Assembly: GCA_029851835.1 (NCBI GenBank)
Contig: JARKVD010000012.1
Location: 32,830-96,829, forward strand
DNA: 64,000 bases
From: Clostridium sp.
GTDB lineage: Bacteria > Bacillota > Clostridia > Clostridiales > Clostridiaceae
Reading direction: 5' to 3'
Part shown: piece after piece, positions 1-20,661 of the stretch
How positions within the stretch are numbered: the first letter of the stretch is position 1
How the letters are laid out: every line of letters starts with the position of its first letter
Position numbers and translations under genes: made by a program
The notes under the pieces: model-generated
Told to the model about the DNA's origin: nothing
The model's input: the letters and a program-made list of their open reading frames with translations, nothing else
The model's database searches: none

Positions 1-1055
1 ACTACTATGCTAAATACCGGTTGAAGAATACTTCCGTCAAAGTATCCATATACGTCTTTACCTAATTCAGCATCAAGAAGGGCCTGTTTTAAAGGTGCGC
101 CTTGAGTCTCTAATAATAGATATTCTAAGGTACTTAAAGCTAAGTATAATTCATCATCAGTAGACCTTCCAGTTACAAAATTCATGGCCATAAATGTCTT
201 TTCTTCTGAATTATCTTCAGCAGAAATAGAATACTCTTTAACTACTTCCTTCATCTTTTCAAATGGTTCTTCCGGAGCAATTTTAGCATCAACTTCTCTT
301 CTCTCAAAGTTAACTAAGTAATTGTCATTTATAAAAGCTAACATTTTCTCAAGATTACCATCTCCATATAAGAAAATAAAGCTGTTTGATGGGTGATAAT
401 ATTTTGCATGGAAGTCTAAAAAATCTTCCTGGGTCAAATCTGGAATAAAATCTGGATCTCCACCTGATTCACACCCATAAGTATTGTTTTCAAATAAGGA
501 GCCTTGAATATTTCTCATTAAAACACCATCTGGAGAAGAAAAAGCTCCCTTCATTTCATTATAAACAACTCCTTTATATGTTAATTCATCTTCGATATTC
601 TCTAGCTCATAATGCCATCCTTCTTGCATTAATATTTCTTTAGTAGAATAAATATTGGGATAAAAAACTGCATCTAAATATACATCCATTAAGTTAAAAA
701 AGTCTTTCTCATTCTTACTTGCTAACGGATATATTGTTTTATCACTAAAAGTCATTGCATTTAAAAATGTGTTTAAAGATCCCTTAATTAACTCAACAAA
801 TGGTTCCTTAGTAGGAAATTTTTTAGAACCACATAAAACACTATGCTCTAATATATGTGCTACTCCAGTATCATCACTTGGAGGAGTTTTAAATCCAATA
901 GAAAAAACTTTATTAGAATCATCATTCTCTAAATGTAAAAGTTTCGCTCCTGTTTTTTCATGCTCAAATATTCTAGCTATGGAATTTAACTCTTCTACCT
1001 TTTCTTGTCTTTCTAATTTAAATCCATGATATACTTTACCAACTTTATATTCCAT
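1..1055 (-). CDS. M16C family zinc peptidase (presequence-protease/insulinase-like), 3' end outside window
   Basis: I translated the minus strand from the ATG at 1055, which follows a good AGGAGG. About 351 residues are visible and the frame is still open at base 1, so the C-terminal part is missing. The inverted zinc-binding motif HILEH (HxxEH) sits near residue 67, followed by KGSLNTFLNAMTFSDKT and MKGAFSSPDG, typical of the M16C/PreP-Cym1 subfamily of pitrilysin metalloproteases. Family members are about 970 residues and degrade peptides inside a closed two-bowl chamber. No signal peptide is visible, so it is probably cytosolic. The ORF track lists only a shadow ORF on the opposite strand (769-1029). 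The family call is secure; the physiological substrate is unknown. Confidence 0.88.
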   Translation of the reverse strand, partial: MEYKVGKVYHGFKLERQEKVEELNSIARIFEHEKTGAKLLHLENDDSNKVFSIGFKTPPSDDTGVAHILEHSVLCGSKKFPTKEPFVELIKGSLNTFLNAMTFSDKTIYPLASKNEKDFFNLMDVYLDAVFYPNIYSTKEILMQEGWHYELENIEDELTYKGVVYNEMKGAFSSPDGVLMRNIQGSLFENNTYGCESGGDPDFIPDLTQEDFLDFHAKYYHPSNSFIFLYGDGNLEKMLAFINDNYLVNFERREVDAKIAPEEPFEKMKEVVKEYSISAEDNSEEKTFMAMNFVTGRSTDDELYLALSTLEYLLLETQGAPLKQALLDAELGKDVYGYFDGSILQPVFSIV

Positions 1056-1384: not shown

Positions 1385-4300
1385 TCAAATCTCCTCTAAC
1401 ATTGGAACCATTATTTTAGCTAAAGTATTAATATAATTTAATTGATCATAATTAAATTCCTTATGATTTATGGATGAAGAAAGATGTATAGCACCAATAA
1501 TCTTTTTCTTATTCTTTAATAAAACAACCATGTTAGATTTAATATCTGGAATTACCATTGATTTGTTATACTGTTTAATACAACTCCAATCAATTCCACA
1601 TATATTTTCATTTGACTCTATTGCTGAATTTACAACATGCATACTATATTCTGTATCAATAACTTCATATTTATTAATACTTTTGCAATATTGATTTGCT
1701 ATCTGATTTTCTTTAATCCTATAAAGAGTACATATATCTGCTTCTGTTATCTCTGCTATACGATTCATTGTATTAACTATTTTTTCATTGATTGAAATAT
1801 CTTCATTTATTAAGTCTATAAACTCAATTACCGTGGACACATTCTTATAATCCTGATCTCCACTTCCTACAAATATACCGCTTAATCTATTAGTAGTACT
1901 TATCTTGAATCCAAAAGATTCACTCCATACTTTGGTTCTATTACGTCCTCCACTTTTCGCCTCATATAAGGCTTGATCTGATTTTTCAATTAGTTCGTCA
2001 TAGGTAGTTGCATGTGTCGGATAACTTGCGACACCCATACTTACCGTAACTTCCCGTTTATCCCCCATAAGTTTTTCTTCTCTTATTTTATTTCTAATTC
2101 TCTCTGCAATAACTTCAGCCTCGTTTACCCCAATATCAGGAAGAACAATAATAAACTCTTCACCACCATATCTTCCAATAATATCATTCTTACGAATATT
2201 ATTTAATATGGTCTTACATAATCTACTTAGTACACTGTCTCCCATCCTATGTCCATAGTTATCATTTATTTCTTTAAACTTATCAATATCAAGCATTATT
2301 ATAGAAAATTCTGTACCATAGGTATAAGATTTCTCTATTTGCTCTTGAACAAAGACTTCTAAATGCTTTCTCATCAGTGCACTAGTTAAATTATCTATAC
2401 TTGAGCTCTTTCTAATATTATCTCTATCAATAATCATATATAGTATTCTTGAAATATTAAAACACTTTTTCATAGTATTGATATTAATATTATTTATTCT
2501 TTTAGTGCTTTCTACATAAATATATCCAACTAAATCATTTGTATATTCGTGGCTATTAGCTACTCTCCCACCTTTTAGAATTTGTATAATAGGGATGCAC
2601 ATAATAGTTTTATTATTATCTACATCATAGCTAAAAACTTCACCACTAATACTAATAGTTCTTTTTTCCTTTGAGATTAATGGTATTTTCTTACTTCTAA
2701 CTATATTGATTAAAGACAAATCATCTGGTATATTCTTCTCTTGATCTGTTGAGGCTGCAACCTTTACCTTTCCTTCATTTTCAACTAAAATCGTAGTCTT
2801 ACATGAAACAGACAATAGATTAATATATTTGCATATAATGTTCAAATTTTCATTGATATTCCCATTCAGTTTACCAAGCATATTATCAACGGTATTTAAA
2901 TCCTCAAAATAACTTCTATTCTGCATTTTAAGCTCTTTTAGAAATATGGAATTAACTATATTTTGTTTCATTAACCCATTTAAATATTCAACTATGTTTT
3001 TAACATTAGAAACATTAACTTCTATATTCGAATTTGCTTTAATTACTCCATAATGCTGTCTTACTTTCATTAATAGTTCAAAAGCTTCGATTATATTTGG
3101 ATTGATGTTTATAAATTTTTCTACGTAATTGTTTGGCATTCCTTCAAGTGTATCTATAATTAAACCACAGCATTCATATATATATCCAGCTGTGCAAGTA
3201 TAATTTTCTTCTTTATAATAACCCTTAGCTAACTGAAAGTTTATTTTCCAAGAAAGCACTAGGTTTTTATCTTTTATCACTTCTAGTCTATCAGCAAGTT
3301 TTCTATAATTACTATCTTGATTTAAAACTACACCTAAATATTCAATCTCAACCTTATTTACACCTGACTTAATTGATTCTTTATTTTTTAAAATATATTT
3401 GTAAACCTCAATTGCATCATCTTCAAATCCTAAATATATAAGCTTATTTATGCAATAACATAACATTGAGACCCTAAAATCCATATATAGAATTTTTTCA
3501 GATGATTTGATAATTAAATCTATATTGACATTACTTCTGTCATAACATAAGCAATAAATATTATGAAGAAGAGCAATTTCGTATCCTACTAAAGACTTAG
3601 AATTTCCTAGAATTTCAAGCCCCTGCTCTAAGTATTTCTTACCTTCCTCTTTACTTCCAGTTATCTCTGAAATAAAATACATGAAAATACAATAAGGTCC
3701 AGCTTCCTGCCAATATTTCATATAATCTTTATCAATATAATGACTACATAGCTTTGCATATCTGTAGCTTTCATTGTATTTACCTTTTTTATATAATATT
3801 GTTCCTATATATGAAAAGTTATAAAAATTAGATGATAAAACTTCACTCTCCATTGCTTTATTAGATGAAACATTAAAATACTCATAAGCTTTACTATAGT
3901 TCATCATCACATAATGCACAAAGCCTAAATTAGATAAACAATTAACCTTGTAGGAGTCATCATCTACTAATGCAACTAAACTATTAGATTTTTCGAACCA
4001 CTTTAATGCCTCTTCTTCACATTGTAAATAATCACTATATAAGACTCCCATACTATTAGTTATTCTACATAACCTTTTAGTAAAATTAAGCTTTTCACAT
4101 CTTTCAACCATTTGTTTCAAAAGTTCTAAACTCTCAATTTCTTTACCTTGAACAACTAAAGAATCAATATAGTAATTCATAAAAGCTAGTCTATATTCCT
4201 CATCCTCTTCCTCACATAAACTTATTCCATAATTACATAATTCTTTTACGCTGTCATACTCCTGTTTATTGTACTTTCTCCAAATAATCATTGATAAATA

Positions 4301-6769
4301 CTTAATTTTACCAAGTCTATAATCAGATTTATTTACAGCGGCCCTCATTTTTTTTAAATACTTAGTAACGTTTTTGTCATACCCAAGATCTATTGATAAA
4401 AATAGAATTTCTCTTAAAATATCTATATATTCATTTAGATACTTTTCTTCATTACAAAGGTTTTGGGCAGATAAATAATAATCCATACTTGTCTTTTTTT
4501 CTGATAGTTTATTATATAACTCACCTAGACTCATATTAGCTGCAATCTCTTCTTTTCTAAGATCTTCAAACTCTCTATTTTCATCTATAAAATTTAATAT
4601 TTTAAAATTAAACTTTATAGCCTCTTCAATCTTATTTAGCTTTTCTAATTCCTTTTTCCTTGCTTTATAAAATTCTAAAATTCTCTTATCCTTAACCTTT
4701 TCTAAATGATATATTATCTCATCAATATACTCACCTTGGTTCTCATCATCAAATGACATTAAGATTTTAGCAATTTCATTATGTTTTTTAATACTTAAAT
4801 TCTCATCTATACTTCTATATAAATAATTTTTTAAAAACTTATTATAAAAAGTATATTTAGTAGATTTATTATTTGTGGTCTTAGATAAAATTCCTTTTGA
4901 AATTAAATATGTTAAACTCTCTCTTAGCTTTTCCTTAGATAAGTTCAAAAACTCTACTATTATTGATAAATTTATAGGCATATAAAAATATGACATTTCA
5001 TGAAGTATATCTAAATATTCTTCCTCTAACCCTGAAAGTTGATTTCTGCATACTTCTTCCATATCAGTAGACATGTATATTTCATGATTAGAAATTTTCT
5101 TCCACATTCCATCAGACTCATCTATATATATTACCTTCTTATCTCTAAGATATTTAATTCCCTCTTCTACTAACAGTGGATTACCCATGGAATGCCTATA
5201 TAATATATCCGTAAAGCCTTCTGAAATTTTATCTACGTTAAGTATATTCTTTAAAACTCTCGATGTCATTTCTTCACTTAAAGGTGTAAGATGGATTTCT
5301 AAATCTACTTTGTTTTTTATTTTACTTAACATTTCTGTAAAATCAGAATTTCCAAGACAATCTCCATCTCGATAAGAAATAATAACAAGAAGATTTCTAG
5401 AACATCTCGATCTACTTAAAATATATTGGATAATACCTAGCGTAAAGGTATCATACATATGAATATTATCCAAAATAATTATTCCTTGCTTATCAGCATA
5501 GTACTCTAACAAAAACAAGGATATTTTAATCATTAAAGCCACATTATTTTTTATCTTGAACTCTACACTTCCATAGTTATCTGTTGTATCTTCTCCATAC
5601 ATTTCTGGAATTACCATAGATAACTCTTTTTTATATTTATTTAAAAGACTTTTATCTGCATTTGTAACTACCTGCTTTAATAAATTACTGATAGCAATGC
5701 TACTTCCATAATCAGTAACATAAAAACAGCTTAAATAATTTTTATAATCAGTCTGAATCAAATGCTTTATATGTGTAATTAATCTAGTTTTTCCGATTCC
5801 AATTTCTCCGTGAATTAGAATAACACTTTGATTACTTTTTTCATTTATACCTTCACTTATTGATTTAATTATATTAGAAACTTCTTCATTTCTTCCTATC
5901 AATGGGGTATTAAAATTTAATTTCTCCTTTTTATTACTTACAAATGAATATGTTGTGTCAAACACCTTATTTACTTCATCTATAATATCAAGAATTTTAT
6001 AATCTTTACTTTTAACATTCTTGTACAAATTATAAATAAGGGTGCTCATTTTTTCACCAATTAACTGTAAATATTGATGCTTCTTTTCACTACTAAGAGT
6101 TTCGTCTATATCCTGCTGAATCCTTCCATATAATCTTACTCCTTTATTTTGAAGAACAATACTAATGAGTATTTCTTTCAGTTTTTCAACATAATATGGT
6201 TCATGAGGAGCTTTACTACTGGTAAAAATGGTATCCTTGTAATTATCACTAGACTCATAATGTATAGGTATGCCCAGCTCTCTACAATCTAACAAGGCAG
6301 TTATCTTATCCTTTAATTTAACTCTATTATCTTTTGAAACATATATACTCTCTACACTAAAAGGCATTATTTTTATATAACTATAACATTGCTCTTGAGC
6401 TAATCTACATATGTCTACAAATATATCTAATAATACAGACTCCTCAATTTCATCAAATATATCCATTAATAATTTATAGTCGCTAATTGAATCTGTAACG
6501 TAGAAATACTCAATCTTTTTATCTTTACTACTTAAATTCATAGTAGAACCAAACTCAAGTATATTTACACATGTATCTTTTAAAATGCTAATCTTTTCAA
6601 ACTCATTAATGCATATTTCTAAAAGTGTTTTTTCAACATGAATAGAATTTAATATATACACATTTACCTTTTTCTTATTTTTTGTAATATCTACAGCCTC
6701 ATACATAGAATAGGATCTACTATTGCTAAGCAGCTTGTCTATCCTATATTTCCCATTAATTAATCTCAT
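1385..6769 (-). CDS. Giant sensor: pseudokinase - STAND ATPase - TPR - GAF - GGDEF - GAF
   Basis: A 1794-residue multidomain protein. Residues about 1-270 resemble a Ser/Thr kinase fold (INGKYRIDKLL start), but the glycine loop, the VAIK lysine, HRDxKPxN and DFG are all degraded, so it is probably a pseudokinase. Residues about 290-600 are a STAND/AAA-type ATPase with Walker A GEIGIGKT near 320 and a Walker B-like IIILDNIH. A long helical TPR region follows (about 600-1230), then a GAF-like domain (about 1290-1450). The GGDEF domain (about 1460-1610) has an intact GGEEF near 1532 and an RKND inhibitory I-site five residues before it, so c-di-GMP synthesis with product inhibition is likely. 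A second GAF-like domain ends the protein. No membrane segment is seen. The ligands and activating signal are unknown. Confidence 0.85.
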   Translation of the reverse strand: MRLINGKYRIDKLLSNSRSYSMYEAVDITKNKKKVNVYILNSIHVEKTLLEICINEFEKISILKDTCVNILEFGSTMNLSSKDKKIEYFYVTDSISDYKLLMDIFDEIEESVLLDIFVDICRLAQEQCYSYIKIMPFSVESIYVSKDNRVKLKDKITALLDCRELGIPIHYESSDNYKDTIFTSSKAPHEPYYVEKLKEILISIVLQNKGVRLYGRIQQDIDETLSSEKKHQYLQLIGEKMSTLIYNLYKNVKSKDYKILDIIDEVNKVFDTTYSFVSNKKEKLNFNTPLIGRNEEVSNIIKSISEGINEKSNQSVILIHGEIGIGKTRLITHIKHLIQTDYKNYLSCFYVTDYGSSIAISNLLKQVVTNADKSLLNKYKKELSMVIPEMYGEDTTDNYGSVEFKIKNNVALMIKISLFLLEYYADKQGIIILDNIHMYDTFTLGIIQYILSRSRCSRNLLVIISYRDGDCLGNSDFTEMLSKIKNKVDLEIHLTPLSEEMTSRVLKNILNVDKISEGFTDILYRHSMGNPLLVEEGIKYLRDKKVIYIDESDGMWKKISNHEIYMSTDMEEVCRNQLSGLEEEYLDILHEMSYFYMPINLSIIVEFLNLSKEKLRESLTYLISKGILSKTTNNKSTKYTFYNKFLKNYLYRSIDENLSIKKHNEIAKILMSFDDENQGEYIDEIIYHLEKVKDKRILEFYKARKKELEKLNKIEEAIKFNFKILNFIDENREFEDLRKEEIAANMSLGELYNKLSEKKTSMDYYLSAQNLCNEEKYLNEYIDILREILFLSIDLGYDKNVTKYLKKMRAAVNKSDYRLGKIKYLSMIIWRKYNKQEYDSVKELCNYGISLCEEEDEEYRLAFMNYYIDSLVVQGKEIESLELLKQMVERCEKLNFTKRLCRITNSMGVLYSDYLQCEEEALKWFEKSNSLVALVDDDSYKVNCLSNLGFVHYVMMNYSKAYEYFNVSSNKAMESEVLSSNFYNFSYIGTILYKKGKYNESYRYAKLCSHYIDKDYMKYWQEAGPYCIFMYFISEITGSKEEGKKYLEQGLEILGNSKSLVGYEIALLHNIYCLCYDRSNVNIDLIIKSSEKILYMDFRVSMLCYCINKLIYLGFEDDAIEVYKYILKNKESIKSGVNKVEIEYLGVVLNQDSNYRKLADRLEVIKDKNLVLSWKINFQLAKGYYKEENYTCTAGYIYECCGLIIDTLEGMPNNYVEKFININPNIIEAFELLMKVRQHYGVIKANSNIEVNVSNVKNIVEYLNGLMKQNIVNSIFLKELKMQNRSYFEDLNTVDNMLGKLNGNINENLNIICKYINLLSVSCKTTILVENEGKVKVAASTDQEKNIPDDLSLINIVRSKKIPLISKEKRTISISGEVFSYDVDNNKTIMCIPIIQILKGGRVANSHEYTNDLVGYIYVESTKRINNININTMKKCFNISRILYMIIDRDNIRKSSSIDNLTSALMRKHLEVFVQEQIEKSYTYGTEFSIIMLDIDKFKEINDNYGHRMGDSVLSRLCKTILNNIRKNDIIGRYGGEEFIIVLPDIGVNEAEVIAERIRNKIREEKLMGDKREVTVSMGVASYPTHATTYDELIEKSDQALYEAKSGGRNRTKVWSESFGFKISTTNRLSGIFVGSGDQDYKNVSTVIEFIDLINEDISINEKIVNTMNRIAEITEADICTLYRIKENQIANQYCKSINKYEVIDTEYSMHVVNSAIESNENICGIDWSCIKQYNKSMVIPDIKSNMVVLLKNKKKIIGAIHLSSSINHKEFNYDQLNYINTLAKIMVPMLEEI

Positions 6770-9836: not shown

Positions 9837-10646
9837 TTAATTTTCAATAAATCTTCCTAGTTTTCTGAACTTATAATAACGCTTTATAAGCAGTGAATCT
9901 ATTGATTCTTTTTCAAATCTTTCAATTGCCTCATTTAAGTTAACAGATATACGGTGTATCATGGCATCAAAATCTTCTTGAGCACCACCTGCTGGTTCTT
10001 TAATGGTTCTATCTATAATTCCAAATTGTAATAAATGTTCTGCAGTAATCTTCATTCTTTCTGCAGCTTCCTTTGACTTAGAGGCATCTCTGTATAATAT
10101 AGATGCAAATCCTTCAGGTGATAAGACAGAGTAAATAGAGTTTTCTAGCATCCAAACTTCATCTGCTACTGCTAAAGCTAAAGCTCCACCACTTCCACCT
10201 TCACCAATAAGCATGGATATAATTGGTGTCTTTAAGTTACTCATAGCCATTAGATTTTTAGCTATTGCTTCTCCAATACCTCGCTCTTCGGACTCCATGC
10301 CACAGAAAGCTCCTGGAGTATCCACAAATATAACAACCGGTCTTTTAAACTTTTCAGCCTGCTTCATTAACCTTAAAGCTTTTCTATAGCCCTCCGGCTT
10401 TGGCATTCCAAAGTTTCTATCAACATTTTCCTTTGTTGACTTTCCCTTTTGAATTCCTATAACAGTTACACTTCTGTTATTAAACTTAGCAATCCCACCA
10501 ACTATTGCTCCATCTTCTCCAAAATATCTATCACCCTTAAGTTCTATAAAATCTTCAAAGATGCTGTTTATATAATCTAATGCCCTAGGTCTCTTAGTAT
10601 TTCTAGATATAGTTACCTTATCCCATGCAGCATTTCTTTCATCCAT
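9837..10646 (-). CDS. accA: Acetyl-CoA carboxylase carboxyltransferase subunit alpha
   Basis: With AccD it transfers CO2 from carboxybiotin to acetyl-CoA, giving malonyl-CoA for fatty-acid synthesis. The 269-residue protein has the crotonase-like fold signatures RPRALDYI, FIELKGDRYFGEDGAIVGG, VDTPGAFCG and the oxyanion segment GEGGSGGALALAVAD. It is shorter than E. coli AccA (319) because it lacks the longer N-terminal helix region, as in other clostridia. Start ATG follows GGGAGG. It is the last gene of the minus-strand fab/acc operon, 24 bp after accD, matching the usual accD-accA order. Confidence 0.97.
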   Translation of the reverse strand: MDERNAAWDKVTISRNTKRPRALDYINSIFEDFIELKGDRYFGEDGAIVGGIAKFNNRSVTVIGIQKGKSTKENVDRNFGMPKPEGYRKALRLMKQAEKFKRPVVIFVDTPGAFCGMESEERGIGEAIAKNLMAMSNLKTPIISMLIGEGGSGGALALAVADEVWMLENSIYSVLSPEGFASILYRDASKSKEAAERMKITAEHLLQFGIIDRTIKEPAGGAQEDFDAMIHRISVNLNEAIERFEKESIDSLLIKRYYKFRKLGRFIEN

Positions 10647-10670
10647 TTACTACACCTCCCTGCTTTGCTC

Positions 10671-11531
10671 CTAAATATTATGAAGGTCTAATAGTTTTCC
10701 TAAGGTCTTTTTCATTTCTTTTCTATGAACTATTTTATCAACAAAGCCCTTCTCCAATAAAAACTCTGCCCTTTGAAAATCTTCTGGGAGCTCCTCTCCT
10801 ATGGTTTGTTGAATAACCCTTCTTCCCGCAAATCCAATAAGCGTCTTAGGTTCTGCAAGAATTATATCACCAAGCATTCCAAAGCTTGCCGTAACTCCAC
10901 CAGTTGTAGGGTCTGTTAAAACAGTAATATATAAAAGTCCTTGTTCATTATGATAAGCTAAAGCTGATGAGGTTTTTGCCATCTGCATTAATGAAAATAT
11001 TCCTTCATGCATCCTTGCTCCACCTGAACAGGTAAAAATTATTATTGGAAGCCTCTTCTTTGTTGAGTATTCAATAGCTCTTGTAAGCTTCTCGCCAACA
11101 GCGCTTCCCATGCTCCCCATCATAAAATTACTGTCCATAACACATATAACAGTTCTATAGCCTTCAATTTTCCCTTCCCCTGTTACTACAGCTTCATTTA
11201 TATTCAGCTTCTGCTTAGAAATCTGAAGTTTTTCTTCATATCCCGGGAAATCTAATGGATTTGTAGAGGTAATATTTGAAAATAACTCCTTGAAGGTTCC
11301 TTCATCAACAACCTGTTTAATTCTCTCTTTTGCTGATATTCTAAAATGGCATTCACAAGAAAAACAAACCTTTAAATTATTTTCTAAGTCCCCTCTATAA
11401 AGTATCTTCCCACAACTAGGACATTTAACCCACATACCATCTGGTATTTGAGGTTTATTGGTCTGCTCCATTCTTTCAGGTTTTACTTCTATATAAACAT
11501 TCTTTTTAAATAACGCCTTTAACTCTTTCAT
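10671..11531 (-). CDS. accD: Acetyl-CoA carboxylase carboxyltransferase subunit beta
   Basis: Partner of AccA in the carboxyltransferase half-reaction. The 286-residue protein has the expected N-terminal Cys4 zinc finger (CPSC...CFSC, about residues 38-60), followed by the crotonase-like core with SGGARMHEG and a [12 protein letters not shown] segment. The zinc finger is known in E. coli to bind its own mRNA and DNA. It lies 30 bp downstream of accC in the operon. An unusual feature at the DNA level is a CCCGGG-centred near-match to a Noc-binding site inside the gene (11238-11251). Confidence 0.97.
11238..11251. promoter_or_regulatory. Possible Noc-binding site inside accD
   Basis: ATATCCCGGGAAAT differs at one position from the B. 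subtilis Noc-binding consensus ATTTCCCGGGAAAT. It is the only CCCGGG I found in the window. It encodes Phe-Pro-Gly using TTC CCG GGA, including an uncommon CCG proline codon for such AT-rich DNA. A Noc homologue is encoded 35 kb away. A single site inside a gene may be chance. Confidence 0.35.
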
Positions 11532-11561
11532 TTTTATCCCTCATTTAGGTTAGCTAAATAC

Positions 11562-12905
11562 TTAGTATCCAAGCTCACTTGCTAAGAAACTTGTATCAAA
11601 ATCCCCACTTGCAAACTTTTGGTTAGATAAAATCTCTAGTTGAAGATCAATATTAGTCTCTACACCTTCTATAATAAATTCACTTAAAGCACTCTTCATT
11701 TTATTTATGGCTTCTTCTCTAGTTTTTCCATGAACGATAAGTTTACCAACCATTGAGTCATAGCTATGGGGAATTACATAATTTTGATAAACCGCTGAAT
11801 CTAGCCTAATGCCATTTCCCCCTGGAATGTGTAATCTTGTTATTTCACCAGGACAAGGCATGAAGTTCTTCATTGGATTCTCAGCATTAATTCTGCACTC
11901 TATTGAATGTCCTTTTAGTTCAATATCTTCCTGTAAAAAAGATAATGTCTTACCTGCTGCAACTTTAATCTGTTCTTTAATTAGATCTATTCCTGTAACC
12001 ATTTCAGTAACTGGATGCTCAACCTGTATTCTTGTATTCATCTCCATAAAGTAGAAATTTAAATTCTTATCAACTAAAAATTCAATGGTTCCTACACCTA
12101 CATAGCCTATAGATTTTGCTGCTTCAACTGCAATTTTACCCATACGTTCTCTTAACTTTTCATCAACTACAACAGAAGGTGCTTCTTCAAGAAGCTTCTG
12201 ATTTTTTCTTTGAACTGAGCACTCACGCTCTCCAAGATAAACTGTATTTCCATGTTCATCAGCTAAAAGCTGAACTTCAATATGCCTTGGCTTTTCAATA
12301 AATTTCTCCATATACATATCGTCATTTTTAAAGGAAATCATAGCTTCTTTTTTCGCTGCTACAAAATCTTTTATTAAGCTGGTTTCATCATGTACAATTC
12401 TTATTCCTTTACCACCGCCTCCAGCTGATGCTTTTATAATCACTGGGTAGCCTATTTCCTTGGCAATTTTCACTGCTTCATCCTCATTCTTAACTAACCC
12501 CTTAGAACCTGGAACAACTGGTACACCAGCAGCCTCCATTAACTGCTTAGCTCTCGATTTATCACCCATCGCTTTTATATTTTCAGAGGTTGGTCCAATA
12601 AATTTTATATTGCACTCTTCACACATCTTAGCAAAACGGCTATTTTCAGAAAGAAAACCAAACCCAGGATGTATAGCTTCTGCTTCTTTTAAAATTGTTG
12701 CACTAAGAATACTATTTTCATTTAAATAACTATCCTTAGAGGCTTTAGGTCCTATACATATACTTTCATCTGCAAGCTGAACATGTAGTCCTTCTTCATC
12801 TCCCTCTGCATACACTGCCACAGTTTTGATTCCTATTTCCCTACACGCTCTGATTATTCTAACTGCTATTTCTCCCCTATTTGCAATTAATATTTTCTTA
12901 AACAT
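11562..12905 (-). CDS. accC: Acetyl-CoA carboxylase biotin carboxylase subunit
   Basis: ATP-dependent carboxylation of the biotin on AccB using bicarbonate. The 447-residue length matches the family (about 450). Visible landmarks: IANRGEIAVRIIRACRE at the N-terminus, IHPGFGFLSEN, the ATP-grasp glycine-rich loop KASAGGGGKGIRIV near residue 160, the LGERECSVQRRxQK-type motif (LGERECSVQRKNQK), and EMNTRIQVEHPVTE containing the catalytic Glu/Arg. Fourth gene from the end of the operon, 19 bp after fabZ. Confidence 0.97.
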   Translation of the reverse strand: MFKKILIANRGEIAVRIIRACREIGIKTVAVYAEGDEEGLHVQLADESICIGPKASKDSYLNENSILSATILKEAEAIHPGFGFLSENSRFAKMCEECNIKFIGPTSENIKAMGDKSRAKQLMEAAGVPVVPGSKGLVKNEDEAVKIAKEIGYPVIIKASAGGGGKGIRIVHDETSLIKDFVAAKKEAMISFKNDDMYMEKFIEKPRHIEVQLLADEHGNTVYLGERECSVQRKNQKLLEEAPSVVVDEKLRERMGKIAVEAAKSIGYVGVGTIEFLVDKNLNFYFMEMNTRIQVEHPVTEMVTGIDLIKEQIKVAAGKTLSFLQEDIELKGHSIECRINAENPMKNFMPCPGEITRLHIPGGNGIRLDSAVYQNYVIPHSYDSMVGKLIVHGKTREEAINKMKSALSEFIIEGVETNIDLQLEILSNQKFASGDFDTSFLASELGY

Positions 12906-12924
12906 ATAGTTACCTTCCTTACCC

Positions 12925-13383
12925 TTATACTCCTACAGCAAAAGTTAACTCAGCTTGGCAAACAACCTTGTCACCAACTTTAGCAGTTGCTTGACCAATT
13001 CCCATTGGTCCCTTCATTTTGATAATTTCTACTTCTAATCTTAATCTATCGCCTGGTACAACTTTTTCTCTAAACCTAGCATTTTTAATTCCACCAAAGT
13101 AAGCAATTTTACCTCTAAATTTCTCATCATATAATAATGCTATTGCTCCAACCTGTGCTAATGCCTCAATTATTATTACCCCTGGAAGCACTGGCTCTTG
13201 TGGAAAATGTCCTTGGAAAAAGTACTCATTCACAGTTACACTTTTATATCCTACTGCTCTCTTTAATGGTTCTAAACTCTCTATTGAATCCACAAATAAA
13301 AATGGATATCTATGAGGTATTATTTCTTGAATTTCTTTTATATTTAAAGATATTGTGTTCTCTAATCTTAATCTATCCTCCAT
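12925..13383 (-). CDS. fabZ: 3-hydroxyacyl-ACP dehydratase FabZ
   Basis: Dehydrates 3-hydroxyacyl-ACP to trans-2-enoyl-ACP in the elongation cycle. The 152-residue hot-dog-fold protein has the catalytic His in HRYPFLFVD and the catalytic Glu in [16 protein letters not shown]. It sits between accB and accC, a common clostridial arrangement. No fabA or fabM is visible in the window, so the source of unsaturated fatty acids cannot be read from this locus alone. Confidence 0.97.
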
Positions 13384-13402
13384 AAATAACTCTCCTTAAT
13401 TA

Positions 13403-13906
13403 TTACTTATTTCTTATAGCTATTAATGGCTGACCATATTCAACAACTTCACCATTTGAAACTAATATTTCTGCTATAACACCATCATTTTCACATTCAA
13501 TTTCATTCATTAGCTTCATGGCCTCAACTATACAAAGGATATCACCCTTAGAAACCTTATCGCCAACCTTTACAAAAGGCTCTGCACCTTCACTTGGTGC
13601 TGCATAAAATGTTCCTACCATAGGCGACTTAACCATAATACAGTCCTCTAATGAATTCTTTTCTATTGTAACTGCATCTTCTTTTTTATCTACTATGTTA
13701 ACTTGATTTTTTACTTCACTTGTAACTACACTCTCATTTGCAACAACAGGTACATTAATTGTATTAACCTCTTTAGCCTTCTCACTTCTATCGCTATAAA
13801 CGTTTTTGCTCATCCTTATTTTAAGTCCTGGCTCCTCTAGTTCAAGTTCTCTAAGATTAGATTCATTAACTATTTTTATTAATTTTTCTATAGCTGTATA
13901 ATCCAT
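13403..13906 (-). CDS. accB: Biotin carboxyl carrier protein of acetyl-CoA carboxylase
   Basis: Carries the biotin that shuttles CO2 between AccC and the AccA-AccD carboxyltransferase. In the 167-residue protein an N-terminal segment (LIKIVNESNLRELELEEPGLKIRMSK) is followed by a linker of about 50 residues and a C-terminal biotinyl domain with EAMKLMNE, where the biotinylated lysine is K131. The start codon lies 3 bp past the fabF stop, so translation is probably coupled. Confidence 0.97.
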   Translation of the reverse strand: MDYTAIEKLIKIVNESNLRELELEEPGLKIRMSKNVYSDRSEKAKEVNTINVPVVANESVVTSEVKNQVNIVDKKEDAVTIEKNSLEDCIMVKSPMVGTFYAAPSEGAEPFVKVGDKVSKGDILCIVEAMKLMNEIECENDGVIAEILVSNGEVVEYGQPLIAIRNK

Positions 13907-13909
13907 GGA

Positions 13910-15148
13910 TTATTCCTCCCATCTCTTAAATAAAAGTGTAGCATTATGTCCTCCGAAGCCTAGTGAATTTGTTAAAGCATACTTAAGTTTAGCTTCTCTT
14001 CCAACGTTAGGAACATAATCTAAGTCACACTCCTCATCCTTTTCTTCATAGCCAATTGTTGCTGGAATGAAGCCCTCTTGAAGTGCTTTTATACAAACTA
14101 TGGACTCAACTGCTCCTGATGCTCCAAGCAAGTGCCCTATCATAGATTTAGTAGAACTTACTGGTATGTTATATGCTCCCTCACCGAATACATCTTTAAT
14201 TGCTATTGTTTCAAATTTATCATTATAAGGTGTACTTGTTCCATGAGCATTGATGTAAGATACTTCATTTAATTCTATTCCTGCTTCATCAATAGCCTGC
14301 TTCATAGCCCTTGCTGCCCCTTCTCCCTCTGGGCTTGGTGATGTAATATGGTATGCATCACAAGTAGCTCCATATCCAACCACCTCTGCATATATTTTTG
14401 CACCTCTTGCTATTGCATGGTCTAATTCTTCTAATATAACAACTCCCGCTCCTTCACCCATAACAAATCCACTTCTATTCTTATCAAAAGGAGTTGAAGC
14501 TTTTTTAGGGTCCAGGCTATTGCTTAACGCTGTTAAAGCAGTGAATCCAGCCATTCCTATTCCTGTTATAGATGCTTCTGTTCCACCAGCTATTATTACA
14601 TCTGCTCTATTAGCCTTTATCATTTCGAAGGCTTCTCCAATACTGTTTGTTCCAGTAGCACAAGCTGTTACAACAGATATACATGGTCCTTTAGCTCCAT
14701 ACTTTATTGCAATGTTTCCTGCAGCTATATTCTCAATCATCATAGGTATTAAGAATGGTGAAACCTTTGTTGTGTCCTTTGTTATCATTCTTTTATGCTC
14801 ATTCTCCATAGTCCCAAGACCACCAATACCTGAACTTACTAATACTCCAAGTCTGTATTTATCCATTGTCTCTAAATCTATTTTAGAATCCTTTATAGCT
14901 TCTTCAGTTGCCACCATAGCATATTGGCAGTATTTATCCATTCTTCTAGCTTCTCTTTTATCTATAGCTACCTCTGGATTAAAATCTTTAACTTCTGCTG
15001 CAACCTTTACTTTAAAATTTTCTGTATCCATTGATTTTATAAAATCTATCCCACACTGGCTTGCTTTAACTCCATTCCAAAATCTCTCTACATCATTTCC
15101 TATTGGAGTTACTGCTCCCATGCCTGTTATTACAACTCTCTTACTCAC
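13910..15148 (-). CDS. fabF: Beta-ketoacyl-ACP synthase II
   Basis: Condenses malonyl-ACP with a growing acyl chain. The 412 residues match the family length (about 413). The Cys-His-His triad is visible: Cys in VVTACATGTNSIG near 164, His in NAHGTSTPYND near 302 and His in KSMIGHLLGASG near 340. N-terminal RVVITGMGAVTPIG and C-terminal NSLGFGGHNATLLFKR are typical. It lies 19 bp downstream of fabG in the operon. The 236-residue plus-strand ORF opposite it (14520-15230) is a shadow. Confidence 0.97.
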   Translation of the reverse strand: MSKRVVITGMGAVTPIGNDVERFWNGVKASQCGIDFIKSMDTENFKVKVAAEVKDFNPEVAIDKREARRMDKYCQYAMVATEEAIKDSKIDLETMDKYRLGVLVSSGIGGLGTMENEHKRMITKDTTKVSPFLIPMMIENIAAGNIAIKYGAKGPCISVVTACATGTNSIGEAFEMIKANRADVIIAGGTEASITGIGMAGFTALTALSNSLDPKKASTPFDKNRSGFVMGEGAGVVILEELDHAIARGAKIYAEVVGYGATCDAYHITSPSPEGEGAARAMKQAIDEAGIELNEVSYINAHGTSTPYNDKFETIAIKDVFGEGAYNIPVSSTKSMIGHLLGASGAVESIVCIKALQEGFIPATIGYEEKDEECDLDYVPNVGREAKLKYALTNSLGFGGHNATLLFKRWEE

Positions 15149-15167
15149 TAGTTACTTCCTCCTATTA

Positions 15168-15908
15168 CTACATAACCATTCCGCCATCAACGTTTATAAC
15201 TTGCCCTGTAATATATGCACCATCTTCTGATGCAAGAAATGCTACCACCTTTGCAATATCCTCTGCAGCTCCAAATCTCTGAAGTGGAATTACATCTAAC
15301 ATTGCCTTTTTTACATTATCATTTAACACATCTGTCATATCACTTTGAATAAATCCAGGTGCAATTGCATTTACCGTTATTCCTCTGCTAGCTACTTCTT
15401 TAGCTATAGATTTAGTAAACCCTATAACTCCAGCTTTTGATGCGGCATAATTTGATTGTCCAGCATTTCCTATGACTCCTACAACTGATGAAATGTTTAT
15501 TATCTTTCCACCACGTTGTTTAATCATATGTGATATTACATTTTTACAAGTGTTGTACACACCCTTAAGATTTATATCTAAAACTCTATCAAAGCTATCT
15601 TCTTTCATTCTCATTAGTAAGCCATCTTTAGTTATTCCTGCATTATTTACAAGTATATCTACAGACCCAAACTCTTTTATACTTTCATCAATTAATCTTT
15701 TTCCATCCTCAAAGCAGCTCACATCACCTTTTACTAGCAAAGCATCTCCACCTAAAGCTTTAATCTCATCTGCTACTGCCTGTGCTTCACCTTCACTGCT
15801 CACATAATTTATTGTTACATTAGCTCCACGCTTTCCAAATTCCAAAGCAATTGCTCTGCCTATGCCTCGGCTTCCCCCTGTAACAACAACATTTTTACCC
15901 TTAAACAT
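15168..15908 (-). CDS. fabG: 3-oxoacyl-ACP reductase
   Basis: NADPH-dependent reduction of 3-oxoacyl-ACP. The 246-residue short-chain dehydrogenase has the nucleotide-binding TGGSRGIGRAIA at residue 11, NNAGI near 87, catalytic Ser in ISSVVG near 138, and YAASKAG with the Tyr/Lys pair near 151-155. The C-terminal GQVINVDGGM is the classic family ending. It lies 14 bp after fabD. Confidence 0.97.
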   Translation of the reverse strand: MFKGKNVVVTGGSRGIGRAIALEFGKRGANVTINYVSSEGEAQAVADEIKALGGDALLVKGDVSCFEDGKRLIDESIKEFGSVDILVNNAGITKDGLLMRMKEDSFDRVLDINLKGVYNTCKNVISHMIKQRGGKIINISSVVGVIGNAGQSNYAASKAGVIGFTKSIAKEVASRGITVNAIAPGFIQSDMTDVLNDNVKKAMLDVIPLQRFGAAEDIAKVVAFLASEDGAYITGQVINVDGGMVM

Positions 15909-15922
15909 ATATTAATTCACTC

Positions 15923-16864
15923 CTATGCACCTTCACTTAAATTCTTTATGGTATTTTCTAAAGAGGCTATGTCCTCCACATTAAATACCTTAGCGTCCTT
16001 ATTAATTTTCTTTATAAATCCACTTAAGGATTTTCCTGGTCCTACCTCTATAAAAGTATCAATCCCCATATACAGCATAGACTCTATAGTTTTTTGCCAT
16101 TGAACAGAAGATTTAACCTGATTTTCTAAAAGCTCTGCTAAATTACTAAAGTCACTTAGAACTTCCCCTGTAACATTTGGGAGTATAACAACATCTGTTT
16201 TTTCTATTTTTATTTCATCTAACTCTTTTCTTAACTTCTTTGATGCCTCTCCCATAAGCTTAGTATGAAATGCACCGCTTACTGTAAGCTTAAGGCATCT
16301 TTTCACCTTTTTACTCTTTAACACTTCTATAGCTTCATCTATTAAAGGCTCTTCACCTGAAATTACAATTTGATTAGGACAATTATAATTTGCAACTGCA
16401 ATAATCCCTCTTTCTCTTAACTCTTCACAAACAGCTTCAATATCCTCCATGTTTCCACCTATTACTGCGGCCATTGCACCCTTGCTTTTATCACTGTCCT
16501 CCTTCATGAAAAATCCCCTTTTTCTAACTAAACTCAATCCATCCCCAAAACTTAAAGCGCCACTTCCAATTAAAGCTGAGTACTCTCCAAGACTTAATCC
16601 AGCCATAGCTGACGGATTTATTCCCTTAGACTTTAAGATTTCTAAAACGGCCATTGATACAGTAACTATTGCCACCTGATTATTTTCAGTAGAAGTTAGA
16701 TCTTCAAGAGGACCGTTAAAACAAAGATCTGCAATATCTTTCTTTAAGATTGAACTTGCCTTATCAAAAATTATCCTTGCTTCTTCAAAGTTCTCATATA
16801 ACTCTCTTCCCATTCCAACATACTGGCATCCTTGACCTGGGAAAATAAATCCTAGTTTTTTCAT
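15923..16864 (-). CDS. fabD: Malonyl-CoA:ACP transacylase
   Basis: Loads malonyl groups from CoA onto ACP. The 313-residue protein has FIFPGQGCQYVGMG at the N-terminus, the nucleophile Ser in GLSLGEYSAL near residue 93 and the catalytic His in SGAFHTKLM near 202, with the substrate Arg region KRGFFM. Length is usual for the family (about 310). It lies 14 bp downstream of fabK in the same operon. Confidence 0.97.
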   Translation of the reverse strand: MKKLGFIFPGQGCQYVGMGRELYENFEEARIIFDKASSILKKDIADLCFNGPLEDLTSTENNQVAIVTVSMAVLEILKSKGINPSAMAGLSLGEYSALIGSGALSFGDGLSLVRKRGFFMKEDSDKSKGAMAAVIGGNMEDIEAVCEELRERGIIAVANYNCPNQIVISGEEPLIDEAIEVLKSKKVKRCLKLTVSGAFHTKLMGEASKKLRKELDEIKIEKTDVVILPNVTGEVLSDFSNLAELLENQVKSSVQWQKTIESMLYMGIDTFIEVGPGKSLSGFIKKINKDAKVFNVEDIASLENTIKNLSEGA

Positions 16865-16878
16865 TATTAAACCACTCC

Positions 16879-17820
16879 CTAAAAATACTCTCCAACAGCT
16901 TTGACTAACTTTTCCGTCTTTTCAACAAAGTCTTTAATTATCTCTTCACAGCTTTCTTGCTTTTTAACTAAAGCTGCAACTTGACCAGCCATAACACTTC
17001 CGTTATTTATATCTCCATCTACAACAGCTTTTCTAAGAGCTCCAATTCCCATTGCCTCTAAATCCTCTGGTGAATTTCCTCCCTTTTCAAGCTTTATATA
17101 CTCTCTTGTTAATCTATTTCTTAAAACTCTTACAGGATGCCCAGTGCTTCTGCCTGTTACAACAGAATCCATATCCTTTGCATCTATAACCTTTTGCTTA
17201 TAGTTTTCATGAACTGTACATTCCTTAGCAACTAAAAATCTAGTTCCAACCTGGAAACCTTTTGCTCCTAAAGCTAATGCTGCCATCATTCCTCTTTCAT
17301 CAGCAATTCCACCCGCTGCTATAACAGGAATATTTACTGCATCAACCACCTGAGGTACAAGAGCCATTGTTGTAAGCTCTCCTATATGTCCACCTGCTTC
17401 ACACCCCTCTGCTATTATCATATCTGCTCCGCTTCTTTCCATTCTTTTTGCTAAAGCAACGGACGCTACTACTGGAATTACTTTTATTCCATGTGACTTC
17501 CACATATCCATGTATTTACCTGGACTTCCTGCTCCAGTTGTAACAACTTTAACGCCTTCTTCACATACAATCTTTGCAACCTCATCTGCATTACTGTTTA
17601 AAAGCATTATATTTACTGCAAAAGGCTTATCTGTAAGCTCCTTTGCTCTTCTTATTTCAGCCCTTACATTCTCTGGTGTGTTTCCACCTGTTGCAATAAT
17701 CCCAAGCCCACCAGCATTAGAAACTGCACTGGCTAATGTACTATCTGCTATCCATGCCATAGCCCCTTGAATAATTGGATATTTAATTCCTAAAGCTTCA
17801 CATATATCCGATTTAAACAT
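16879..17820 (-). CDS. fabK: Enoyl-ACP reductase II (FMN-dependent FabK)
   Basis: Final reductive step of elongation. The 313-residue TIM-barrel flavoprotein has IQGAMAWIADSTLASAVSNAGG, GCEAGGHIGE, PVIAAGGIAD and ALGAKGFQVGTRF, typical of FabK and the related nitronate monooxygenases. Placement inside the fab operon, with no fabI or fabL in the window, makes FabK the right call. FabK enzymes are naturally insensitive to triclosan (family knowledge). A 70-bp gap containing an RNA hairpin separates it from acpP upstream. Confidence 0.95.
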   Translation of the reverse strand: MFKSDICEALGIKYPIIQGAMAWIADSTLASAVSNAGGLGIIATGGNTPENVRAEIRRAKELTDKPFAVNIMLLNSNADEVAKIVCEEGVKVVTTGAGSPGKYMDMWKSHGIKVIPVVASVALAKRMERSGADMIIAEGCEAGGHIGELTTMALVPQVVDAVNIPVIAAGGIADERGMMAALALGAKGFQVGTRFLVAKECTVHENYKQKVIDAKDMDSVVTGRSTGHPVRVLRNRLTREYIKLEKGGNSPEDLEAMGIGALRKAVVDGDINNGSVMAGQVAALVKKQESCEEIIKDFVEKTEKLVKAVGEYF

Positions 17821-17839
17821 ATATACCTCCTATGGTTAA

Positions 17840-17863
17840 GGTCAGATAGTTAACTACCTGACC
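17840..17863 (-). other. Intercistronic RNA hairpin between acpP and fabK
   Basis: On the minus-strand transcript GGUCAGGUAG pairs with CUAUCUGACC around a UUAA loop: ten continuous pairs including one G-U wobble. On the plus strand the same position would be an A-C mismatch, so the structure fits RNA of the operon better than a protein operator. No U-tract follows, so it is not a normal terminator. It may protect or process the acpP mRNA. Confidence 0.65.
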
Positions 17864-17890
17864 CCGTAAAACCTGAACTCTTATATTTCC

Positions 17891-18121
17891 TTAGTTTATT
17901 TTGCTTTCGATATATTTTGATATATCTTCTACACTCTTGATATCTTCAATATCTTCATTTGGAATTTCTATATCAAGTTCTTCTTCTAAACTCATAACTA
18001 TTTCAAATATTTCTAATGAGTCTATACCTAAATCATCTGTAAATGAAGCTGTTATATTTACTTCATTTGCCTCTATACCTAACTGCTTTGCCACTACATT
18101 TTTAACTCTTTCTAATACCAT
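17891..18121 (-). CDS. acpP: Acyl carrier protein
   Basis: Carries acyl intermediates on a 4'-phosphopantetheine arm. The 76-residue acidic helical protein contains the DDLGIDSLEIFE motif, with the modified serine at S35. It is the third gene of the fab operon, between fabH and fabK. ACP is needed in large excess over the enzymes, which may explain the hairpin in the following gap. Start ATG follows AGGAGG. Confidence 0.97.
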   Translation of the reverse strand: MVLERVKNVVAKQLGIEANEVNITASFTDDLGIDSLEIFEIVMSLEEELDIEIPNEDIEDIKSVEDISKYIESKIN

Positions 18122-18152
18122 TCTACTTTCCTCCTAAATATATATAATTTTA

Positions 18153-19130
18153 TTATTTGTTCCACTTTAATAGAGCACTTCCGTAAGTTAACCCCCCGCC
18201 AAATCCAATGATTACAATATTGCTCCCATTAGCCAGAACTCCAGCCTTATTTGCTTCATCTAACGCTACTGGAATACTTGCTCCAGATGTATTACCTACA
18301 TGCTGTAAGTTAATAATAAATCTATCTAAAGGCATCTCTACCTTTTTAGAAAAACTCTCTATCATCCTCATATTCGCTTGATGAGGAAGGATAAAAGTTA
18401 TATTTTCCTTTTCCAATTTGCTTTCATTTAATATTCTAGTGAATTCTTCATCCATAGTTTTAACTGCAAATTTATAGATGTCTTTGCCATTCATTTTTAA
18501 TTTGCCTTCAGCCTTTTCTTTTAAATGTGTATATGGATTATTAACTGGTGAACCTTCACAAGTTAATGACTCCCATTTTTCACCTACACTTTTACAACTA
18601 ATGTAATTTATGTGGCTCTCTTCATCAACACTTAAAACAACAGCTCCAGCCCCATCTCCAAATAGCACACAAGTATTTCTATCTTTCCAGTCTGTTATCT
18701 TTGATAGGACCTCTGCACCAATAACTAAAGCCTTTGTTGCTCTTCCAGTAGCAATATAGTTGTTAGCCATATCTAAAGCAAATATAAATCCACTACAAGC
18801 TGCATTAATATCAAAAGCCATTGCATTATCTGCTCCAATATTCTTTTGCACCTTACAAGCTGCTGAAGGTACTATACTATCAGCACTTACGGTAGCAACT
18901 ATAATTAGGTCTATATCTTGAGCAGCTATATTACTGTCTTTTAATGCACCTATAGCCGCCTCTGCAGCTAAGTCTGAAGTTGTTTCACCCTGTGATATTC
19001 TTCTTTCTACTATGCCAGTTCTTTCCTTAATCCATTCATCTGATGTATCAACAAGAGCTTCAATTGCTGTGTTAGACATCACATTGCTTGGCATATATGA
19101 TCCAGTACCTAGTATTCTTGAACCCTTCAC
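18153..19130 (-). CDS. fabH: Beta-ketoacyl-ACP synthase III
   Basis: Starts fatty-acid synthesis by condensing an acyl-CoA primer with malonyl-ACP. The 325-residue protein has the Cys-His-Asn triad: Cys in INAACSGFIFAL near 112, His in LPHQANMRM near 250 and Asn in HVGNTSGAS near 280. The start codon is GTG (19128-19130), spaced 8 nt from AAGGAG. It follows fabT by 12 bp and is the first biosynthetic gene of the operon. Confidence 0.96.
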   Translation of the reverse strand: MKGSRILGTGSYMPSNVMSNTAIEALVDTSDEWIKERTGIVERRISQGETTSDLAAEAAIGALKDSNIAAQDIDLIIVATVSADSIVPSAACKVQKNIGADNAMAFDINAACSGFIFALDMANNYIATGRATKALVIGAEVLSKITDWKDRNTCVLFGDGAGAVVLSVDEESHINYISCKSVGEKWESLTCEGSPVNNPYTHLKEKAEGKLKMNGKDIYKFAVKTMDEEFTRILNESKLEKENITFILPHQANMRMIESFSKKVEMPLDRFIINLQHVGNTSGASIPVALDEANKAGVLANGSNIVIIGFGGGLTYGSALLKWNK

Positions 19131-19779: not shown

Positions 19780-20661
19780 TTAATATTCTCTTGAACCGGT
19801 ATACTGTAATGGGTCTACTGGAACTCCATTAACCCTTATTTCAAAATGTAGATGAGGCCCCGTACTGTCACCTGTACTTCCAACTTCAGCTACAATTTGA
19901 CCCTTCATTACTTTTTCACCAGTAGATACTTTTAATGTGCTGCAGTGTGCATATACTGTTTCTGTACCATCACCATGATCAATCATTACAACATTACCAT
20001 AACCGCTTGCAACTCCTGAAAAATATACAGTTCCGTCTAAGGCAGCTTCAATAGGCGTTCCTGAATTAGCAGCTAAATCAATGCCCTTATGGTTATATCC
20101 ACTTCTTTGTTCTCCAAAAGTAGATGTTAATATTCCCTTAATAGGTGTATTCAAAGAATTATGAAGAAAAACTTCTTTATAAAGTTCTGAACTACCACTA
20201 CTTAGAGTATTAAATGCTACCTTTTCATTAGTTTTTAAACTTTCAGGTACAGCTTTTATATCAGCTTCTTTTTTTACTGTAAAGCTCACTAACCCTTCCT
20301 TATTTTTATCATTATACTCTATTATCCTATTTGAAATTTCCTCCTCATTTAAAATATCCTTTTCATCACATTTAATCTCCTGGTAGGATATTTTATTATT
20401 TACTTCTACATCCTTGATTTTGTCGATTCCCGAACTTCCAATATAGATATGTTTAACAATTTCGATAGCATCACTACCAACTTCCTCATTTGCAACAATC
20501 CCTATATTTACTCCGTCAGACTTCATGACTAAAGCATTTACTGCATCCTCTTCAAGGGCTCCCCTCTTGCTTTCTGGTAATCCGTTCATGGTAACCATTG
20601 TAATAATGCATAAGGTTGATACGCACACTATGACTATTTCTTTCCATAGTTTAATTTTCAT
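19780..20661 (-). CDS. Membrane-anchored M23 (LytM) peptidase
   Basis: A 293-residue protein with one N-terminal membrane segment (about residues 8-26, IVIVCVSTLCIITMVTMNG), a middle region of about 140 residues without a recognised fold, and a C-terminal LytM/M23 zinc peptidase domain. The zinc ligands are intact: HKGID (HxxxD) and HLHFE (HxH), with GYGNVVMIDHGDG between. It should cleave peptidoglycan cross-bridges outside the membrane. The arrangement resembles sporulation proteins such as SpoIIQ, but the middle region is not diagnostic. It is a separate unit, upstream of and divergent from the helicase-loader pair. Confidence 0.85.
   Translation of the reverse strand: MKIKLWKEIVIVCVSTLCIITMVTMNGLPESKRGALEEDAVNALVMKSDGVNIGIVANEEVGSDAIEIVKHIYIGSSGIDKIKDVEVNNKISYQEIKCDEKDILNEEEISNRIIEYNDKNKEGLVSFTVKKEADIKAVPESLKTNEKVAFNTLSSGSSELYKEVFLHNSLNTPIKGILTSTFGEQRSGYNHKGIDLAANSGTPIEAALDGTVYFSGVASGYGNVVMIDHGDGTETVYAHCSTLKVSTGEKVMKGQIVAEVGSTGDSTGPHLHFEIRVNGVPVDPLQYTGSREY

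Follow-up and report, generated by a model that had tools for sequence, protein, structure and literature searches.

The 64-kb window (the whole stretch of DNA that was analysed) carries on its minus strand a reading frame, open over exactly positions 1385-6769, that encodes a protein of 1794 residues; the first-pass annotation of this DNA had described the protein but given no strand for it. From the N-terminus the order is a degenerate Hanks-kinase fold (residues 1 to ~275), a STAND ATPase with a winged helix (~285-655), a TPR region (~690-1240), a GAF-like domain, a GGDEF domain and a C-terminal GAF domain, and Pfam, family profiles and predicted structures together show that all of the domains named in that annotation are real (coordinates of the parts are given below as window positions, all on the minus strand). 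The gene lies between map (upstream) and a gene for an M16C peptidase (downstream), an order that is common to related species. Read by eye, the sequence has a ribosome site (AGGTGG, 6782-6777) 7 nt 5′ of the ATG and, directly 3′ of map, an AT-rich hairpin with a run of T, so that transcription probably starts from a promoter of the gene's own; scans for promoters and terminators scored no better than shuffled sequences.

The 1794-residue protein used as a single query gave no matches when scanned against genome contigs, and matches were obtained by closer alignment of relatives. The N-terminal 590 residues are matched in 77 of 227 genomes of the same order, mostly within open frames of ~1,700-1,860 codons. 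Among the named species and genera of the family are Clostridium tagluense, C. bowmanii, C. tunisiense, C. thermopalmarium, Hathewaya, Oceanirhabdus, Alkaliphilus and Acetoanaerobium, together with Paucisalibacillus and Ornithinibacillus from the Bacillaceae. Matches at the level of the class are not a family count, since many of them are shorter frames matched in the kinase part alone. The family alignment used throughout comprises 63 relatives of 1,702-1,847 residues from Clostridiaceae, other Clostridia and some Bacillaceae, so that the similar large clostridial proteins whose existence had been suspected do exist, and the family is widespread in Clostridium. Four loci (L039, L047, L048, and L050) carry the family gene as two separate ORFs, for which decay and sequencing error are both possible.

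The kinase-like domain (residues 1-275; 5945-6769) was missed by Pfam and PDB searches with the single sequence of 1794 residues. Pkinase was matched in 18 of 28 family N-termini (best Pfam E value 1.4e-20), a family profile of residues 1-720 matched Ser/Thr kinases in the PDB over positions 2-287 (best E value 5.5e-26), and an AlphaFold model of residues 1-720 of the window protein (pLDDT 77.5, pTM 0.71) gave target-normalised TM scores of ~0.6 with PknB and other kinases. Structure prediction and profile search thus both place the N-terminus with the kinases, where an unrelated fold would have spoken against the first-pass annotation. The catalytic motifs are lost, as had also been claimed: in the window protein the G-loop positions are S/S/Y, the VAIK Lys is Y, the HRD Asp is P, the K and the N that should follow are both S, and only the DFG Asp is left. 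Across the family the VAIK Lys is found in 3 members, the HRD Asp in 11, the HRDxK Lys in none and the DFG Asp in 50, and the complete Lys, Asp and Asp set (Y, P, and D in the window protein) occurs in 0 of the 63. The residues that replace the lost motifs differ from member to member.

The features that define a STAND protein are present in the next region, in agreement with the P-loop STAND-type NTPase originally proposed. The nucleotide-binding domain (AAA_16, residues 290-463; 5381-5902) is matched by Pfam in the window protein (E value 5.7e-9) and in all 28 family N-termini, as well as by the family profile. It contains the P-loop GEIGIGKT (residues 321-328; 5786-5809), whose Lys 327 is found in 63/63 members, a preceding GR motif (54/63) and the Walker B Asp (D434; 59/63). 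A helical domain with the GxP motif (GNP, 529-531; Gly and Pro in 63/63) and a winged helix follow (residues 464-655; 4805-5380), and in this part the model of residues 1-720 has an H-H-H-E-E topology. Fold searches with this model return Apaf-1, MalT and a STAND-TPR protein, and the ZAR1 resistosome is also among the matches. Walker B is degenerate in 4 of the 63 members and the edge of the P-loop is changed in a few, with GGEE still kept. The second acid of Walker B is N435 (~5465-5467) in the window protein, and Asn (36/63) is commoner here than Asp (23/63), so that DN outnumbers DD; an Asn at this position might slow ATP hydrolysis. The TPR array (residues 690-1240, limits approximate; 3050-4702) corresponds to the long TPR scaffold noted earlier; its repeats are weak in the window protein, yet TPR_12 is found in 20/20 relatives and TPR_MalT in 16/20.

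The C-terminal part was modelled as residues 1240-1794 (pLDDT 80, pTM 0.45, at which domain packing is not predicted) and consists of a GAF-like domain, a long helix, the GGDEF domain and then a second GAF domain. The GGDEF domain (residues 1457-1611; 1937-2401) has a Pfam E value of 1.1e-42, and its model superposes on 3ign with an rmsd of 1.8 and 42% identity. Residues D1494, F1498, K1499, N1502, H1507, D1511 and K1605 together with GGEE are found in 63/63 members, and the full catalytic motif GGEEF (residues 1535-1539; 2153-2167) in 59, the other four having GGEEL or GGEEI; judged by sequence, the diguanylate cyclase signature and the active-site residues are intact. The RxxD inhibitory site named in the first-pass annotation was found as R1526-K-N-D1529 (2183-2194), five residues N-terminal (5′) of GGEEF, and occurs in 48/63 members, those of the Bacillaceae being without it. 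In five Bacillaceae loci (L093, L094, L096, L098, and L104), where this I-site is lost, a second family gene lies directly downstream as a tandem paralogue. The GAF domains that had been claimed differ in standing. The C-terminal one (residues 1660-1794; 1388-1792) is weak in a single-sequence Pfam search and is supported by a GAF match in 30 of 35 members and by the model, while the first (residues 1305-1425, limits approximate; 2495-2857) has no significant Pfam match, is poorly conserved across the family and is a fold-level assignment from the predicted topology. The helix that leads from this GAF-like domain into the GGDEF domain spans residues 1430-1457 (2399-2482; helix 191-218 of the modelled construct).

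The product of such a cyclase would find targets in its own cell. The genome, a draft of 2.19 Mb at 82.7% completeness, contains six GGDEF genes, one EAL gene, one PilZ gene, three c-di-GMP-I riboswitches over the cut-off and one c-di-GMP-II riboswitch below it, and by this inventory the cell has receptors for c-di-GMP. Two strong c-di-GMP-I riboswitches lie in tandem, 204 bases apart (G000:C6:19552-19634 and 19838-19920), and no riboswitch was found inside the 64-kb window.

In a tree of the STAND domain the 63 members form one side of a single branch with 100/98 support, and on the other side are relatives whose kinase motifs are intact or almost so; one change separates the two sides in every bootstrap tree (100%), a figure to be read with the midpoint root, some long branches and the non-independence of the sequences. 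Outside the family, where outputs were read from motifs by eye and not HMM-scanned, the same kinase-STAND-TPR front end is found with intact kinase motifs in Zixibacteria (L109/L123), with sigma54-type ends in Acidobacteria and a myxobacterium (L113, L122, and L119), and with a histidine kinase (L188 and L189, the latter without the HRD Asp), a HATPase (L181 and L184) or a LuxR-type HTH (L190). Since relatives with an intact kinase pair this front end with other outputs, the family is, as read from the sequences, one monophyletic pseudokinase-diguanylate cyclase branch of a modular kinase-STAND superfamily that includes PknK and Candida Chk1. On a separate branch (L180, L183, and L185) the front end again joins kinase and STAND domains, its kinase motifs are intact and the protein ends in GGDEF without a C-terminal GAF; GGDEF was therefore probably gained more than once as an output. 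Going by the pattern of retained and lost residues, selection has preserved the cyclase together with the nucleotide switch, and has released the kinase chemistry.

The architecture is not wholly new. The relative L175 (G559), which is 1826 residues long when counted from the start MNIINNRYK, is likewise a pseudokinase. Its front end can be aligned with that of the window protein, the tree puts the two in one clade, and they share domain order, size and descent; from its equal length of 1826 residues and the size of the chromosome, not from an accession match, we take L175 to be the Clostridium thermocellum protein gi|23020879. In C. thermocellum ATCC 27405 this protein was described as 1826 residues with a kinase domain, six TPRs and a GGDEF domain (Krupa & Srinivasan, 2005, PMC1262709), so that the pseudokinase-STAND-cyclase architecture was partly described in 2005, although the excerpted part of that account has no mention of the STAND ATPase, the GAF domains or the loss of the kinase motifs. 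The open-access literature yielded no described function or mechanism for the family, and none for this combination of domains, as the first-pass annotation had supposed.

Several known systems share parts of the arrangement, and the kinase-STAND proteins among them were compared by their published descriptions. PknK of M. tuberculosis joins a Hanks-kinase domain to a MalT-type STAND ATPase (PMC9045387, PMC4381067) and, as here, the kinase-like domain is followed directly by the STAND/AAA_16 ATPase, but the PknK kinase is active and autophosphorylates (PMC9045387) and no GGDEF output has been described for it. In Chk1 of Candida and Mak2/Mak3 of S. pombe an output enzyme is likewise preceded by a Ser/Thr kinase-like domain, AAA_16 and then GAF (PMC9069115), but the enzyme is a hybrid histidine kinase instead of GGDEF; the same paper notes S_Tkc domains paired elsewhere with ATPase and diguanylate cyclase domains (PMC9069115). 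The window protein belongs to a sister branch of this superfamily and is neither a PknK nor a Chk1. MalT of E. coli, a model of inducer-driven STAND assembly (PMC4381067), resembles it in the STAND switch, the arm and the TPR-type sensor (fold match 8bob_C; TPR_MalT in 16/20 members) and differs in having a DNA-binding output and no kinase-like domain. STAND proteins in general assemble upon binding an inducer and switch from an ADP-closed to an ATP-open form (PMC4381067). Two further systems are parallels in how they work. In E. coli an NTPase system, RdcA/RdcB, activates the diguanylate cyclase DgcE, probably via dimerisation (PMC6510439), a case of NTPase control of a diguanylate cyclase in which the dynamin-like GTPase RdcA is a separate partner, the input is a membrane MASE1 domain and there is no STAND or pseudokinase. 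In plants the pseudokinases RKS1/ZED1 are reported to serve as sensors for the STAND (NLR) protein ZAR1 (PMC6634424, PMC9539561), as separate proteins, in plant immunity and with another output, and we claim no common membership. The NCBIfam TOMM kinase/cyclase identity was rejected, as it scored 54 bits against a cut-off of 706 and matched only the shared ATPase/TPR parts.

From the domain order, the folds, the loss and retention of motifs across the family and the swapped outputs, all of which the analysis shows, we infer a closed/open cycle in which a trigger leads to assembly and assembly gates the cyclase. We propose, at what we judge to be even odds, a soluble diguanylate cyclase that is gated through assembly of its STAND domains, the pseudokinase having no catalytic part and acting as sensor or latch. 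At rest the STAND module would be closed with ADP and held by contacts of the TPR arm, probably together with the pseudokinase. Binding of a ligand, peptide or partner to the TPR/pseudokinase part would open it, ATP would displace ADP and the STAND domains would assemble. GGDEF domains act as dimers, and the assembly would join them, via the GAF-like domain and the linker helix, into the obligate dimer that forms c-di-GMP, with the I-site and the C-terminal GAF restricting or adjusting the output. The pseudokinase would act throughout as a binding or latch domain without catalysis.

The proposal is favoured by the dead kinase motifs, the P-loop Lys and the cyclase residues kept in 63/63 members, the interchangeable outputs of relatives, the MalT/Apaf-1-like fold with its TPR array, and the c-di-GMP riboswitches, EAL and PilZ of the same genome; with the P-loop and cyclase kept and the kinase chemistry lost, the pattern fits the oligomerisation-gated c-di-GMP synthesis suggested in the first-pass annotation. 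Against it stand the four members with a degenerate Walker B and the few with altered P-loop edges that keep GGEE, and the TPR arm, which puts ~800 residues between the STAND and GGDEF domains in a chain whose packing is not predicted (pTM 0.45). The wider claim, a single-chain, apoptosome-like STAND assembly with c-di-GMP as output and a kinase fold that is wholly sensor or latch throughout the Clostridia/Bacillaceae clade, we hold more tentatively, at somewhat under even odds. STAND switches drive transcription factors, kinases and cell-death pathways, and a STAND-gated cyclase, if true, would link such assembly to c-di-GMP and provide a single-chain system in which to study pseudokinase control of a STAND switch.

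The same members with a degenerate Walker B and intact GGEE would be accommodated by an ordinary GAF-controlled cyclase, in which a ligand or redox state is sensed by the GAF domains, which in turn set the geometry of the GGDEF dimer; the pseudokinase, STAND and TPR regions would then form a fixed scaffold or a platform for localisation, with structural ATP. GAF-GGDEF pairs are frequent, and here GAF domains flank the GGDEF domain on both sides, the C-terminal one well conserved; a P-loop Lys and GxP in 63/63 members go beyond what a passive scaffold needs, however, and the first GAF-like domain is poorly conserved, so that we consider this explanation rather unlikely. It is improbable that the kinase-like domain performs unusual chemistry, such as nucleotidyl transfer or non-canonical phosphotransfer, on the STAND module or a partner and so controls the cyclase. 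Some pseudokinases were later found to have other activities, and the DFG Asp, still there in 50/63 members amid the loss of the other residues, leaves metal or nucleotide binding possible, but the VAIK Lys (3/63), HRD Asp (11/63) and HRDxK Lys (0/63) are largely or entirely gone and their replacements vary, where a concealed active site would be expected to conserve the substituting residue. Finally, STAND and kinase domains are known in defence systems and PADLOC kinase models match the relatives, but an anti-phage STAND protein with c-di-GMP or GGDEF as an abortive output was rejected as very improbable, as PADLOC had no match for the window protein, the matches of the relatives are mostly PD-T4-6 and taken as generic kinase-domain matches, and the neighbourhood (map, M16 peptidase, cinA, acc/fab) is a housekeeping one repeated in related species, not a variable island.

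Around the gene some further observations can be recorded. The M16C peptidase (insulinase/PreP-like) occupies window positions 1-1055 on the minus strand, and its whole gene is seen in a related locus (L193:6958-9885). In 25 family loci the peptidase gene is a near neighbour of the cyclase gene: in 15 it follows directly downstream, and in six, which belong to a second paralogue group (L080, L082, L083, L084, L089, and L101), it stands directly upstream and its product has a signal-like N-terminus; the peptidase may be a functional partner, an arrangement that synteny or block duplication explains equally. Upstream of map, on the same (minus) strand, positions 9837-19130 hold a fatty-acid synthesis cluster (acc/fab). 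At 36229-38226, minus strand, an ORF of 665 residues resembles by eye a GdpP-type c-di-AMP phosphodiesterase with a degenerate GGDEF and a DHH domain, and on this ground a second cyclic-dinucleotide system is placed in the window.
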